A DNA stretch of 64,000 nucleotides from assembly GCF_008107445.1 (NCBI RefSeq), contig NZ_VSLD01000007.1, positions 62,001-126,000 of the forward strand, given 5' to 3'. This document shows, in pieces, positions 38,205 to 42,876 of the stretch (positions are counted from its first letter, which is position 1; the number at the start of each line of letters is the position of its first letter). Under the pieces are notes generated by a model, which was not told the DNA's origin, made no database searches, and saw nothing but the letters and a program-made list of their open reading frames with translations. The position numbers and the translations under genes were made by a program. Source of the stretch: Arthrobacter echini (GTDB lineage Bacteria > Actinomycetota > Actinomycetes > Actinomycetales > Micrococcaceae).

Positions 38205-39266
38205 CTAGGGCTCCAGCGAGTGGATGAGCTCGACGACGCGCGTGAGCACGGCGGGATCCGTCTCGGGCGGTACGCCGTGCCCGAGGTTCACCACGTGTCC
38301 CGGTGCCGCGGCCCCGGCGGCGAGCACGTCCCGGACGTGCCGCTCGAGGACGGGCCACGGTGCGGGGAGCAGGGCCGGATCGATATTGCCCTGGAGCGGG
38401 ACGGCGCCACCGAGCCGCCGATTGGCCTCGTCGAGCGGCAGCCGGTAGTCGACGCCGATCACGTCGACCCCGACGTCGTGCATGGCCACGAGCAGTTCCG
38501 AGGTGCCGGTGCCGAAGTGGATCAGGGGCGCGCCGAGGCCGCGCACGTGGTCCAGGGCCCTGCGCGAGGCCGGCGCCACATGACTCCGGTAGTCCGCCAG
38601 CGAGAGCGAGCCCGCCCAGGAATCGAAGAGCTGCGCCGCACTGGCGCCGGCCTCGAGCTGGGCGCGGAGGAACATGCCGGAGGCGTCGGCTGCCCACTCC
38701 GTCAGGGCCTGCCAGGTGTGGGGATCCGCGTGCATCATGGTGCGCGGTCCGAGGTGGTCCCGGGACGGCTTTCCCTCGACCATGTAGGCGGCCAGGGTGA
38801 AGGGGGCACCAGCGAACCCGACGAGCGGCGTGGAGCCGAGCTGCTCGACGGTGAGGCCCACGGCCTGCCGGATGGGTTCGAGGGCCTCCGGCGTGAGGCG
38901 CGGCAGGGCCGCGACGTCGGCGGCGGAACGGATCGGCGAGCCGAGGACCGGGCCCACTCCGGGAACGATGTCCACGTCGACGCCGGCCAGCTTCAAGGGG
39001 ATGACGATGTCCGAGAAGAAGATGCCCGCATCGACGTCGTGCCGCCGGACCGGCTGCAGCGTGATCTCCGAGGCCAGCTCCGGGATGAGGCAGGACTGCA
39101 GCATGTCGGTGCCCTCCCGCAGAGCCCGGTACTCGGGCAGCGACCTCCCGGCCTGGCGCATGAACCATACGGGGCGCCGGTGCGGTCTCTGGCCCCGGTA
39201 GGCGCGGATGAGTGCCGAGTCGGACGTACGTCCGTCGACCAGCGGGTGCGATGCTCCAAGGTCCAT
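38205..39266 (-). CDS. hemE: Uroporphyrinogen decarboxylase
   Basis: A 353-residue enzyme making coproporphyrinogen III. Signature one, RRPVWFMRQAGRSLPEYRAL, carries the substrate-binding Arg residues, and GFAGAPFTLAAYMVEG is the second. It is the first gene of the eight-gene minus-strand heme operon. CAGAAT lies seven bases before the ATG with no ribosome site, so the mRNA may be leaderless. Its promoter shares the gap with hemA and an iron box. Confidence 0.96.
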   Translation of the reverse strand: MDLGASHPLVDGRTSDSALIRAYRGQRPHRRPVWFMRQAGRSLPEYRALREGTDMLQSCLIPELASEITLQPVRRHDVDAGIFFSDIVIPLKLAGVDVDIVPGVGPVLGSPIRSAADVAALPRLTPEALEPIRQAVGLTVEQLGSTPLVGFAGAPFTLAAYMVEGKPSRDHLGPRTMMHADPHTWQALTEWAADASGMFLRAQLEAGASAAQLFDSWAGSLSLADYRSHVAPASRRALDHVRGLGAPLIHFGTGTSELLVAMHDVGVDVIGVDYRLPLDEANRRLGGAVPLQGNIDPALLPAPWPVLERHVRDVLAAGAAAPGHVVNLGHGVPPETDPAVLTRVVELIHSLEP

Positions 39267-39401
39267 GCACCCGATTCTGCCGAAGATCCCTGCGGAGCGT
39301 TAACCGGTGCAGGCGCCCCGACCACGCCGCGCTGCTCCGCGTGCGCAACATCACTCCGCTTCCGCGACCACGGGTCTGGCGGAACGGCGAGGAATACCCT
39401 C

Positions 39402-39420
39402 CCGGGTAAGGCAAACCTAT
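39402..39420. promoter_or_regulatory. DtxR/IdeR-like iron box between hemE and hemA
   Basis: The 19-mer from 39402 (CCGGGTAAGGCAAACCTAT) matches 14 of 19 positions of the DtxR consensus TWAGGTWAGSCTWACCTWA, and 12 of 13 in the core GGTWAGSCTWACC. It ends 24 bp before the hemA -10 element, so a bound repressor would cover the -35 region. The consensus is established for DtxR/IdeR; binding here is inferred. Confidence 0.6.
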
Positions 39421-39444
39421 TCAGGGAATGGGACGGGACCTCGG

Positions 39445-39450
39445 TATGCT
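39445..39450 (+). promoter_or_regulatory. -10 element of hemA
   Basis: TATGCT, nine bases before the hemA GTG. A weak TTCAGG at 39420-39425 could serve as -35. The leader would be three bases or less. Confidence 0.45.
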
Positions 39451-39459
39451 GGAATCATT

Positions 39460-40833
39460 GTGGTACTTCTTTCACTCGTAGCGACCCACTCGGATGTAGA
39501 CCTGGAAACCGTGGCCCGACTCAGCATCGGAGCGCCCCAGGTCCCCTCGGTGGTGCTCGCCGACGACAGGACCGTTGCCGGCGCCGTCGTCCTGGCCACG
39601 TGCAACCGCTTCGAGATCTATGCCGAGGCGCCCACCGTGGAGGACGTCGAAGCCGCCCGCTCGGCGATCATCTCGACCATCAGCGAGTACTCCGGCATCT
39701 CCGAGCAGTCCGTCTCCTCCTCCTTCCGGACCCACACCGGGCAGGATGTGGCCGAGCACCTCTTCGCCGTCGGCGCCGGCCTCGATTCCGCCGTGATCGG
39801 CGAGCGGGAGATCGCGGGGCAGGTGCGGCGGGCCCTCATCGAGGCTCAGGGCTCCGGTGCGGCCAGCGGCTCCCTGGTGCGCCTCTTCCAGGCTGCCTCG
39901 AAGACCGCCAAGGACGTCGGAGCGCAGACAGCCCTCGGCTCCCGTGGACGCTCGATCGTCTCCGTGGCTCTCGAGCTCGGCAGTGACATATCCGCCGACC
40001 CGGACTGGTCCCGGAAGTCGGTGGTCCTCTTCGGCACGGGCGCGTACGCCGGAGCGACCGTCGCGGCCCTGAAGGACAGGGGCTGCACCGACATCTCCGT
40101 GTTCTCCTCCTCGGGCCGCGCCGAGGCCTTCGTCGCATCCCGCGGCGGTACCGCCGTCTCCGCTGCGGGTCTGGCCGATGCCCTGGGGCAGGCCGACGTC
40201 GTCATCGGGTGCAGCGGCAGTGACGCCCGCATCGACGCCGCCGACATCGAGCGGGTCCGCGCAGGCAGCACCTCTCCCCTGCTCGTGATCGACCTGGCAC
40301 TGAGCCACGACTTCGACCCGGCCGTGGGACTGCTCGACGACGTCGAGCTCATCACGCTCGAGTCGGTCCGCGCAGCTGCCCCCGACGAGCAGGCGGATTC
40401 CCTGGTGCAGGCGAGCGACCTCGTCCGGGACGCGGCCCGCGCCTTCGAGGAACAGCAGAGCGCACGAGCGATGAACGCGTCGATCGTGGCACTGCGCCGC
40501 CACACGCAATCGGTGCTCGACTCCGAGATGGAACGTGTCCGCGCCCAGCACGGCTGCACGGCCGCCGCGGAGGAGGTGGAGTTCGCATTGCGCCGCATGG
40601 TGCGTCAGCTCCTGCACGTGCCCACCGTGCGGGCTCGCGAACTCGCCGCCGAGGGACGCCAGGAGGACTACGAGGCAGCGCTCCAGGCCCTGTACGGGAT
40701 CGACGTGACGCAACCCGGCACGCCGGCGGACGCCACCGCCGACCGGACGCCCCGGACAATGCCCGGTGCTGGCGCTGGTGCCGAGGACGCGGCGTGCCCG
40801 GTGGATCGGGATCGTCCGGCTCGCGGCGCCTGA
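39460..40833 (+). CDS. hemA: Glutamyl-tRNA reductase
   Basis: A 457-residue enzyme that reduces glutamyl-tRNA to glutamate-1-semialdehyde, the committed step of the pathway. The nucleophilic Cys48 is in [30 protein letters not shown] and the NADPH-binding [13 protein letters not shown] follow. The GTG ([11 protein letters not shown]) matches the family N-terminus, so longer upstream starts are rejected. It is divergent from the rest of the heme operon and sits downstream of the iron box, which suggests iron-dependent control of the entry step. The last 30 residues are not conserved. Confidence 0.95.
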
Positions 40834-40914
40834 ATCGAGGAGGTTCCCGGGTACGGGGGCTCTTCAGGACATCGGCCTGACCAATACGTGGGCCGGTCCA
40901 CTCCGTGCGCCTGT

Positions 40915-42165
40915 CTAATACGTGAGCTTGTCCGGTTCGATCCTGCGGACCCACTCCGTGATGCCGCCCTCCACCGAGTGCACCTCCGTGTGGCCCCGGC
41001 TGCGGAGGAATCGGACCACCTCCGCAGACCGGACGCCCGATTTGCAGTGCACGTACGCCGTCCGCGCAGGATCGACGACGGTCTCGCCGTCGAGGATTGT
41101 GCCCTTGGGGACGAGCACGGCGCCATCGATACTCACGATCGCGTGCTCCTCGGGGCTGCGCACATCCAGCAGGTCGAAGTCCGCCCGGCCCTCGGAGCGC
41201 GCCGCGAGGAGCCCCGCCAGCTCGTCCACGGACACCACCGGCACCGCCGCCGTGTCCGGGCCTGCCGCCGCATCCGGGTCCACCGTGCGGGTCGCGGAGG
41301 GCAGCCCGCAGAACTGCTCGTAGTCGACGAGCTCCGTGATGGGCGGGATGCTCGGATCCGGCCGGACCCGCAGTTCGCGCCAGCTCATCGCGAGCGCATC
41401 GAAGACCAGCACCCGGCCGAGCAGGGTGGTCCCCACTCCCGTGATGAGCTTGATCGCCTCGTTGACCATCACGGAACCGATCTGCGCGCACAGGACCCCG
41501 AGCACACCGCCCTCCGCGCACGACGGCACGGACCCCGCCGGCGGCGGTTCGGGAAAGAGATCCCGGTAGGTGGGCCCGTGCCCCTGCCAGAAGACGCTGA
41601 CCTGTCCGTCGAAGCGCAGGATGGAACCCCAGACGTAGGGCTTGCCCAGGATGGCGGCGGCGTCGTTGACGAGGTACCGGGTGGCGAAGTTGTCGGTGCC
41701 GTCGATGATGAGGTCGTACCCGGAGAACAGGTCGAGTGCGTTGGCGCGCTCCAGCCGTTCCTGGTGCAGCACCACCTCGACGAGCGGGTTCACCTCCGCC
41801 ACACTCAGGCGCGCGGACTCGGCCTTGGAACGTCCGAGATCGGCCATGCCGTGGATGACCTGGCGCTGCAGGTTCGACAGCTCGACGTCGTCGTCGTCCA
41901 CGATGCCCAGCGTGCCCACCCCCGCTGCCGCCAGGTAGAGCAGCGTCGGGGAACCGAGCCCGCCTGCTCCTATCACGAGGACACGTGCCTGTCTGAGGCG
42001 CAGTTGCGCCTCGATCCCGAACCCGGGAATGATCAGGTGCCGGGAGTAGCGCTCCGCCTCCTCCTGCGACAGGGTACCGACCGGCTCCACCAGCGGCGGA
42101 AGCCCCGCGGGGCTGTCCGCCGACGGCGGCGCGACGGCGGAAGCCAGGGATCCGGAAACAGTCAT
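40915..42165 (-). CDS. moeZ: ThiF/MoeB-type adenylyltransferase with rhodanese domain (MoeZ)
   Basis: A 416-residue enzyme that activates ThiS/MoaD-like carrier proteins by adenylation and then sulfurates them. The E1-like domain has VIGAGGLGSPTLLYLAAAG and DGTDNFATRYLVND. A C-terminal rhodanese domain (about 295-416) has LLDVRSPEEHAIV and the catalytic Cys in VHCKSGVRSAE. It serves molybdopterin, thiamine or thiocarboxylate pathways; the partner is not in the window. Rv3206c is the positional equivalent. TACCCT lies five bases before the ATG. Confidence 0.93.
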   Translation of the reverse strand: MTVSGSLASAVAPPSADSPAGLPPLVEPVGTLSQEEAERYSRHLIIPGFGIEAQLRLRQARVLVIGAGGLGSPTLLYLAAAGVGTLGIVDDDDVELSNLQRQVIHGMADLGRSKAESARLSVAEVNPLVEVVLHQERLERANALDLFSGYDLIIDGTDNFATRYLVNDAAAILGKPYVWGSILRFDGQVSVFWQGHGPTYRDLFPEPPPAGSVPSCAEGGVLGVLCAQIGSVMVNEAIKLITGVGTTLLGRVLVFDALAMSWRELRVRPDPSIPPITELVDYEQFCGLPSATRTVDPDAAAGPDTAAVPVVSVDELAGLLAARSEGRADFDLLDVRSPEEHAIVSIDGAVLVPKGTILDGETVVDPARTAYVHCKSGVRSAEVVRFLRSRGHTEVHSVEGGITEWVRRIEPDKLTY

Positions 42166-42170
42166 ACCCA

Positions 42171-42176
42171 AGGGTA
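42171..42176 (-). promoter_or_regulatory. -10 element of moeZ (leaderless type)
   Basis: TACCCT on the minus strand, five bases before the moeZ ATG, with no ribosome site. Confidence 0.4.
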
Positions 42177-42216
42177 GGGCGCAGCACCGCGGCGATGCCA
42201 CCGCGGGGCCGGCCGG

Positions 42217-42258: not shown

Positions 42259-42876
42259 GTGAGTGCAGAACCGACCACCGGACGCGCCGTGCGGCTCCCG
42301 CGCGACGAGCGTCGACGCCAGCTCCTCGCGGCAGCACAGGCGGTCTTCGTGGGCAACGGCTACCACGGGGCCGCCATGGACGACATCGCCGATGCCGCCC
42401 GGGTCAGCAAGCCGGTGCTCTACCAGCACTTCCCCGGCAAGCGCGATCTGTACCTTGCCCTGCTGGACAGCCATCTCGCGGAACTGACCGAGCTGTTGAT
42501 CGATGCGCTCCGCTCCACCGATGACAACGATCTGCGCGTCCACGCGACCATGCGCGCGTACTTCCAGTTCATCGCCCAGGACAGCAGGGCGCATCGACTG
42601 GTCTTCGAATCCGACATCAGCGACGAACCGGACGTCAGCAGTCGGCTGGAGGCGTTCAACGCCCACTTCGCGAGCGCCATCGCGGAGGTGATCGCCGACG
42701 ACACCCAGCTGTCCATGGTCGAGGCGACCCTCCTGGGCAGGGGCCTCGCCGGGATGGCGCAGATCAGCGCCCGCTACTGGCTCGAGACCGACGGCAGCCT
42801 CGACATCGATGCCGCCGCGGAGCTGATCTATCGTTTAGCTTGGCGCGGAATCAGCCGCTTCCCCAAGGAGATCTAG
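42259..42876 (+). CDS. TetR family transcriptional regulator
   Basis: A 205-residue regulator (Rv3208 position). The helix-turn-helix spans about 25-60 with MDDIADAARVSKPVLYQHF and then PGKRDLYLALL. The C-terminal ligand domain has no recognisable pocket. It is followed 47 bp later by the DUF3107 gene, an arrangement kept across actinobacteria. Its targets are unknown. Confidence 0.92.
   Translation: MSAEPTTGRAVRLPRDERRRQLLAAAQAVFVGNGYHGAAMDDIADAARVSKPVLYQHFPGKRDLYLALLDSHLAELTELLIDALRSTDDNDLRVHATMRAYFQFIAQDSRAHRLVFESDISDEPDVSSRLEAFNAHFASAIAEVIADDTQLSMVEATLLGRGLAGMAQISARYWLETDGSLDIDAAAELIYRLAWRGISRFPKEI

Follow-up and report, generated by a model that had tools for sequence, protein, structure and literature searches.

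Structures of IdeR bound to DNA place one CCTAA repeat on each subunit, so that one dimer occupies two repeats with four bases between them, and the 19-bp IdeR box is described as two interleaved sites of this one-dimer kind (PMC8464063). The IdeR protein of Saccharopolyspora erythraea is reported to bind a lone half-site as one dimer with an apparent KD of 78 nM, and TTAGGNNNNCCTAA has been proposed as a redefined IdeR consensus (PMC8464063). A 2023 review of IdeR presents the role of half-sites, the mode of activation, and the occurrence of half-sites in other species as open questions (PMC10317159). In Corynebacterium diphtheriae, the -35 element of ftn is positioned one base 3' of a DtxR site, and the transcript is predicted to have no 5' leader. 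This site beside the -35 element is said to suffice for DtxR-dependent activation, and the hemA operon of the same organism is tabled as iron- and DtxR-induced, with log2 values of 1.35 and 1.85 (PMC13001254). For Corynebacterium glutamicum, DtxR-mediated upregulation of an engineered heme pathway is announced in the title of one paper (PMC6160403), and the main text of a DtxR/HrrA binding study does not name hemA (PMC12327846). Among the matches listed for literature on DtxR/IdeR together with hemA, Arthrobacter, or Micrococcaceae, drawn mostly from nonsubscription sources, no title or abstract opening reported an IdeR half-site at hemA.

The hemA promoter and the divergent heme genes

The window, i.e., the whole 64,000-nucleotide stretch that was analyzed, comes from a 3.16-Mb genome, the nearest named relatives of which are Arthrobacter records with HemA proteins 80 to 90% identical. 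The glutamyl-tRNA reductase gene hemA (39460 to 40833, plus strand) starts with a GTG codon 9 nt after the -10 hexamer TATGCT (39445 to 39450, plus strand), in which T1, A2, G4, and T6 do not vary among 37 genomes. Given this short distance, the hemA transcript would be leaderless or nearly so, and no ribosome-binding site was seen before the GTG. A spacer of 17 to 18 bp would put the -35 element at 39421 to 39427 (plus strand), a place estimated partly from spacing and holding no good match to TTGACA. Counted from the GTG, the candidate regulatory site described below ends at -40 and the -10 hexamer starts at -15, with no recognizable -35 hexamer between them; the spacing would fit an ftn-type promoter.

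The gene for uroporphyrinogen decarboxylase, hemE (38205 to 39266, minus strand), is the first of a divergent run that continues with cgoX/hemY, hemQ, the ferrochelatase gene, hemC, hemD (identified by matches below curated cutoffs), hemB, and hemL. The first-pass annotation had proposed that the gap between hemE and hemA controls all nine heme genes. The clustering of the nine genes holds, but we see no ground for control of the other eight by the box at hemA. The suggestion that the box perhaps also governs hemE was not upheld, as roughly 140 bp separate the box from the start of hemE, with a conserved putative hemE core promoter (39274 to 39304, minus strand; -35-like TTAACG and -10-like CAGAAT) and a second palindrome in between. 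The latter, GTGCGCAACATCAC (39341 to 39354, no strand assigned), has the form GTGN-N6-TCAC and is situated between the hemE and hemA promoters. It is kept in most genomes of the genus, reads GTGGCCAACATCAC in several relatives, and is presumably a Crp/Fnr-like (Crp/GlxR-type) site upstream of hemE. On the other side of the locus, two long reading frames in 40352 to 42187 gave no Pfam match; they precede a gene for a TetR-family regulator near FasR (42259 to 42876, downstream of hemA; NF053731, 216 bits against a cutoff of 330).

Sequence of the candidate box

The stretch originally proposed as an iron-repressor box comprises the 19 bases at 39402 to 39420 (plus strand; CCGGGTAAGGCAAACCTAT), said to match the DtxR/IdeR consensus at 14 of 19 positions and at 12 of 13 in the core. 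We obtained the same 14 matches with the degenerate consensus TWAGGTWAGSCTWACCTWA, 13 of 19 with the strict form TTAGGTTAGGCTAACCTAA, and, by eye, the same count for the core. The box had also been regarded as the sole copy recognizable by eye, and indeed no other place in the 64-kb window has at least 13 matches to the degenerate consensus. From 100 simulations under a first-order Markov model of the window, 0.12 places per 64 kb with at least 14 of 19 matches are expected by chance, and the 19-mer match in one window is thus modest evidence only.

Conservation as a unit is confined to the right-hand 14 bp of the 19-mer. This segment forms a DtxR-family half-site, TAAGG-CAAA-CCTAT (39407 to 39420, plus strand), spanning -53 to -40 from the hemA GTG and ending 1 to 2 bases upstream of the expected -35 place, in line with the earlier description of the box as abutting the -35 region. 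It agrees at 8 of 10 positions with the published IdeR half-site TTAGGNNNNCCTAA, which served as the scoring consensus and was not fitted to these data. Scores of at least 8 of 10 are expected by chance at 3.04 places per 64 kb, so that these 10 positions alone are not rare. Across the organism's own genome, WWAGGNNNNCCTWW was not enriched (6 places versus 11 for the reversed control), and on this count the idea of a broad half-site regulon there was dropped. The decisive support for the box is its conservation at a fixed position.

Conservation within the genus

The region upstream of hemA was compared in 38 genomes of the genus, 37 of which were readable; in G033, hemA lies at a contig end. 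In all 37, the box occupies exactly -53 to -40 from the hemA GTG. The pattern TWAGG-N4-CCTAT is exact in 32 of them, and the other five (L165, L167, L173, L174, and L187) carry one or two changes; scores against TTAGGNNNNCCTAA range from 7 to 9 of 10. Information content amounts to 1.5 to 2.0 bits in the box columns (1.09 at W) and to 0.06 to 0.43 in the four spacer columns, for which 20 different sequences occur across the genus. The interval from box to -10 contains no indels in the 37 genomes, while indels are common upstream of the box. With TT added, the pattern TWAGGNNNNCCTATT has 34 exact places in the 38 genomes. Of these, 31 are at hemA, one per genome and each 53 bases 5' of the start, and 3 are elsewhere, making its place at hemA near-exclusive; the reversed control has 9 places in the same genomes. 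The first-pass annotation had proposed a DtxR/IdeR-family site and considered that a lack of conservation in related genomes would speak against it. Since its position is conserved in the relatives, we retain it as a predicted site of this family.

The two-dimer 19-bp IdeR/DtxR box (TTAGGTTAGSCTAACCTAA, with four CCTAA repeats) is not kept as a unit across the 37 genomes. Positions 3 to 5 and 11 to 14 of the 19-mer are not kept as a two-dimer box needs, and the 19-mer was rejected as the functional unit. The box at the hemA promoter is real, and its conserved unit is the 14-bp half-site, which differs from the 19-mer. Judged from the sequence, the geometry of this half-site is that of one DtxR-family dimer, a reading that would account for a free spacer at hemA and a fixed spacer in two-dimer boxes.

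A second HemA paralogue, 46 to 52% identical, was found in four genomes of the genus (G015, G037, G023, and G035; loci L196, L197, L198, and L199). No box was seen in the 80 bases before these second-HemA matches, whose start codons were not set.

Recurrence across Micrococcaceae and other families

Outside the genus, 141 genomes of the family were found and the upstream regions of 80 were read. Sixty-one of these (62 rows, as G071 appears twice) represent 31 other genera, and the further 19 were chosen from genera already positive for the box and left out of the genus counts. The first family-wide comparison used the genus pattern in place of the published half-site. A half-site with at least 7 of 10 matches at -55 to -52 was present in 16 of the 31 other genera (17 of 32 with the genus itself), and one with at least 8 of 10 was present in 11 (12 of 32). 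Five genera, g8, g14, g19, g27, and g29, reach 7 of 10 and no higher and are included in the 17; one g27 row (L318) was underscored through a misplaced shift, and this genus counts through its other rows. Against TTAGGNNNNCCTAA, at least 7 of 10 matches at -54 to -51 occurred in 13 of the 31 other genera, compared with at most 3 for any other 4-nt window. By single loci, 20 of the 79 readable among 80 named ones reach 7 of 10 and 59 do not; the 7/10 match of L025 (Pseudarthrobacter) is probably due to chance. In g12, HemA is just 33% identical and its start is uncertain.

Several genera are informative about the form of the site. In g9, a genus that branches close to the base of the HemA tree, it reads TTAGGTCTGCCTAA, a 10/10 match. 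All four g11 genomes have the symmetric variant TGAGG-N4-CCTCA, in which both sides of the palindrome have changed. In g21, no box is found at -53; instead, a 9/10 half-site begins at -43, exactly 10 bp nearer to hemA, in five of five genomes (L306, L354, L355, L356, and L357, each at -43 to -30), a displacement of one helical turn. These cases bear on whether the box merely belongs to the conserved core promoter, or results from shared ancestry without a regulator. The box does abut the -35 region, and its CCTATT end touches the -35 place. Against such an origin stand the inverted repeat with its free spacer and weakly conserved flanks, the genera with a similar -10 at the same place and no box, the one-turn shift in g21, and the symmetric variant in g11; we give this explanation hardly any credence.

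The box is absent from many genera, for example from g10 in all seven genomes read, and g25 and g32 are mixed. In six other families of the order (20 genomes), matches of at least 7 of 10 in the 200 bases before the assumed start were confined to G239 (7 of 10 at -63, taken as chance); some starts in these families were set by alignment alone. Mapped on the HemA tree by a quick method, with 14 of 39 inner branches weak, presence of the box changes 11 to 12 times. This tree does not separate gain from loss, and the box is either an old, easily lost element or one that was gained repeatedly. We favor one origin with losses because the position is identical. Such lability, with absence in many genera and 11 to 12 changes, suggests that the box is dispensable, which counts against its proposed role as an activating IdeR operator.

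IdeR and MntR as candidate binders

Two DtxR-family proteins are encoded in the genome. One is IdeR, whose gene lies beyond the window at G000:C39, and the other is MntR-like, with a gene that follows an ABC-3 metal transporter. IdeR aligns to its S. erythraea counterpart with an E value of 8.7e-77; in this alignment the helix SGPTVSQT is identical, and the DNA-contacting residues Ser37, Pro39, Thr40, and Gln43 are present.

For likely targets of the two proteins, the comparison used the 30 best loci each of the siderophore-permease promoter (fecCD) and the mntA promoter, out of 37 and 38 genomes with a match, respectively. The best fecCD half-site is NTAGG-YTAG-CCTTA in 26 of 30 promoters and takes another register or form in 4. 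In 11 of 30 it reads ATAGG-YTAG-CCTTA, the reverse complement of which contains the hemA half-sites TAAGG and CCTAT. Boxes at the mntA start are TTTAGG-YATG-CCTMAA or close to it, with a YATG spacer that is probably fixed because the start codon lies inside it.

The two sets differ in the base preceding each half-site. At mntA it is T in 57 of 60 half-sites, compared with 0 of 74 at hemA; at fecCD it is G or C in 58 of 60. At hemA, all 37 left half-sites are preceded by G or C and the right ones by A in 34 cases and by G in 3, so that the right side departs slightly from the IdeR form as well. The hemA box does not have the MntR operator form TTTAGG-N4-CCTAAA with its preceding T (0 of 74 half-sites).

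A further comparison comes from g28, where both genomes contain a single DtxR-family protein, an IdeR 70.5 and 74.0% identical to that of our organism, and lack MntR. Their hemA boxes are kept, with scores of 9/10 and 10/10 (TAAGGCATCCCTAA and TTAGGCTTCCCTAA; G091 is the 10/10 case). As a case against MntR this is strong but not final, representing one genus and one loss. Three more genomes without MntR (G069, G070, and G051) have no box, which is compatible with either binder. Binding of the box by the manganese sensor, which would couple heme synthesis to manganese, could draw on the TTAGG-N4-CCTAA geometry shared by mntA operators and on a hemA-like second site, TAAGG-CAYG-CCTAT, in 2 of 30 mntA promoters. 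Set against the preceding T and the box retained beside IdeR in g28, it appears very unlikely.

Palindromes spaced by four bases are also recognized by regulators of the NarL/FixJ type, such as NreC and ComA. Another dimeric regulator of this kind, resembling the heme-sensing HrrA and ChrA of corynebacteria, could therefore be considered as the binder. Regulators of this type control hemA in Corynebacterium (PMC10991733). However, the hemA half-sites equal those of the IdeR boxes in the same genomes and equal the published IdeR half-site (PMC8464063), and we judge a NarL/FixJ-type binder to be improbable. Favored over MntR, IdeR is with good probability the protein that binds the hemA half-site.

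Two other palindromes were recorded in the course of these comparisons. One, the MntR-type TTTAGGCATGCCTAAA, has the mntA ATG within its spacer (L093:2595-2610, around G000:C26:517095); in 19 of 30 mntA promoters of relatives, a second MntR-type copy with 9 or more of 12 matches lies 23 bp upstream. The other, the perfect palindrome TTAGGGTGCCCTAA (L095:2761-2774, G000:C34:351260), precedes by about 1.6 kb a reading frame resembling metX by eye and is possibly a further half-site.

Proposed mechanism and its sign

When iron is plentiful, Fe-IdeR would bind TAAGG-N4-CCTAT as a single dimer directly upstream of the presumed hemA -35 element. The bound protein would most likely aid RNA polymerase, and the committed step of porphyrin synthesis would accordingly rise with iron; when iron is short, this help would be lost. 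Provided that IdeR binds, we regard a positive effect on hemA as the likelier sign, by analogy with known promoters. Activation is preferred because the box adjoins the presumed -35 place, much as a DtxR site adjoins -35 at ftn, whereas repressed genes have their box over the -10 element and/or the start. The whole reading, a single-dimer IdeR operator that activates hemA with iron, has in our estimate an even chance of being correct, obtained by multiplying our confidence in the binder by that in the sign.

The first-pass annotation had predicted repression at high iron or a more complex role. The position upstream of the -35 element fits activation better than repression. If IdeR bound the half-site and repressed, its position beside the -35 element would hinder RNA polymerase and hemA expression would be lower in high iron. 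IdeR does repress iron-uptake genes (PMC10317159), and the g21 site at -43 to -30 covers the -35 place; this shifted site could mean repression. Yet the boxes of repressed genes are described as covering the -10 element and/or the start (PMC10317159). The same presumably holds for the siderophore-permease IdeR box of the genus, which lies 38 to 79 nt before the start codon in 28 of 30 promoters with a canonical box. Moreover, both iron and DtxR induce the C. diphtheriae hemA operon (PMC13001254), and less heme under rich iron would make little physiological sense. Taken together, repression seems unlikely to us.

Regarding activation by IdeR, the tendency of IdeR-activated genes towards several boxes (PMC10317159) counts against it at hemA. 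A weaker -35 element in genera with the box was considered as a mark of activation and was discarded, since no difference was found: the mean best match was 2.67 in 13 genera with the box versus 2.77 in 13 without it (P = 0.98). Genera whose boxes were mixed, marginal, or shifted were excluded from this comparison, as was any row lacking TAnnnT at the -10 place. With -35 elements of equal quality, the promoter gives no sign of activator dependence.

A bolder proposal is that the lone IdeR half-site acts as a dedicated, direct iron-to-heme switch across Micrococcaceae. One Fe-IdeR dimer would activate hemA by contact, in phase with RNA polymerase, in keeping with a site that is either retained at -53 or displaced by exactly one turn. 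We put this proposal forward tentatively, at somewhat less than even confidence. If true, half-sites would gain a function and IdeR a simple mode of activation without Lsr2 or several boxes.

Comparison with known systems

In Arthrobacter-like soil bacteria, heme synthesis probably follows iron supply directly through a strictly positioned sequence signal before hemA, most likely bound by IdeR. If true, the committed step of heme synthesis would be under direct iron control, unlike the indirect route of C. glutamicum (PMC10991733). The hemA site offers a conserved, natural promoter with a single half-site for studying both the role of half-sites and activation by IdeR.

Closest in form is the nuo half-site of S. 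erythraea, likewise a one-dimer palindrome of the TTAGGNNNNCCTAA type with a free spacer, described for an IdeR whose SGPTVSQT helix is identical (PMC8464063). The candidate site described here differs in lying at hemA and in its fixed promoter position, which is conserved over the genus and part of the family. Closest in arrangement is DtxR site 3 of C. diphtheriae ftn, which ends beside the -35 element of a leaderless promoter, an arrangement that the hemA site would share; iron induction is reported there and predicted here. However, ftn has three DtxR-binding sites and hemA a single half-site (PMC13001254). The bfrB gene of Mycobacterium tuberculosis also combines iron-dependent activation with one box overlapping the -35 element, but has four boxes and is activated against Lsr2 (PMC10317159). 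In C. glutamicum, iron controls hemA transcription, but indirectly via HrrA, which counts against a direct IdeR reading (PMC10991733, PMC12327846). In M. tuberculosis, hemL, a different gene of 5-aminolevulinic acid (ALA) synthesis, is reported to have a putative IdeR box and lower mRNA levels in low iron (PMC10991733).
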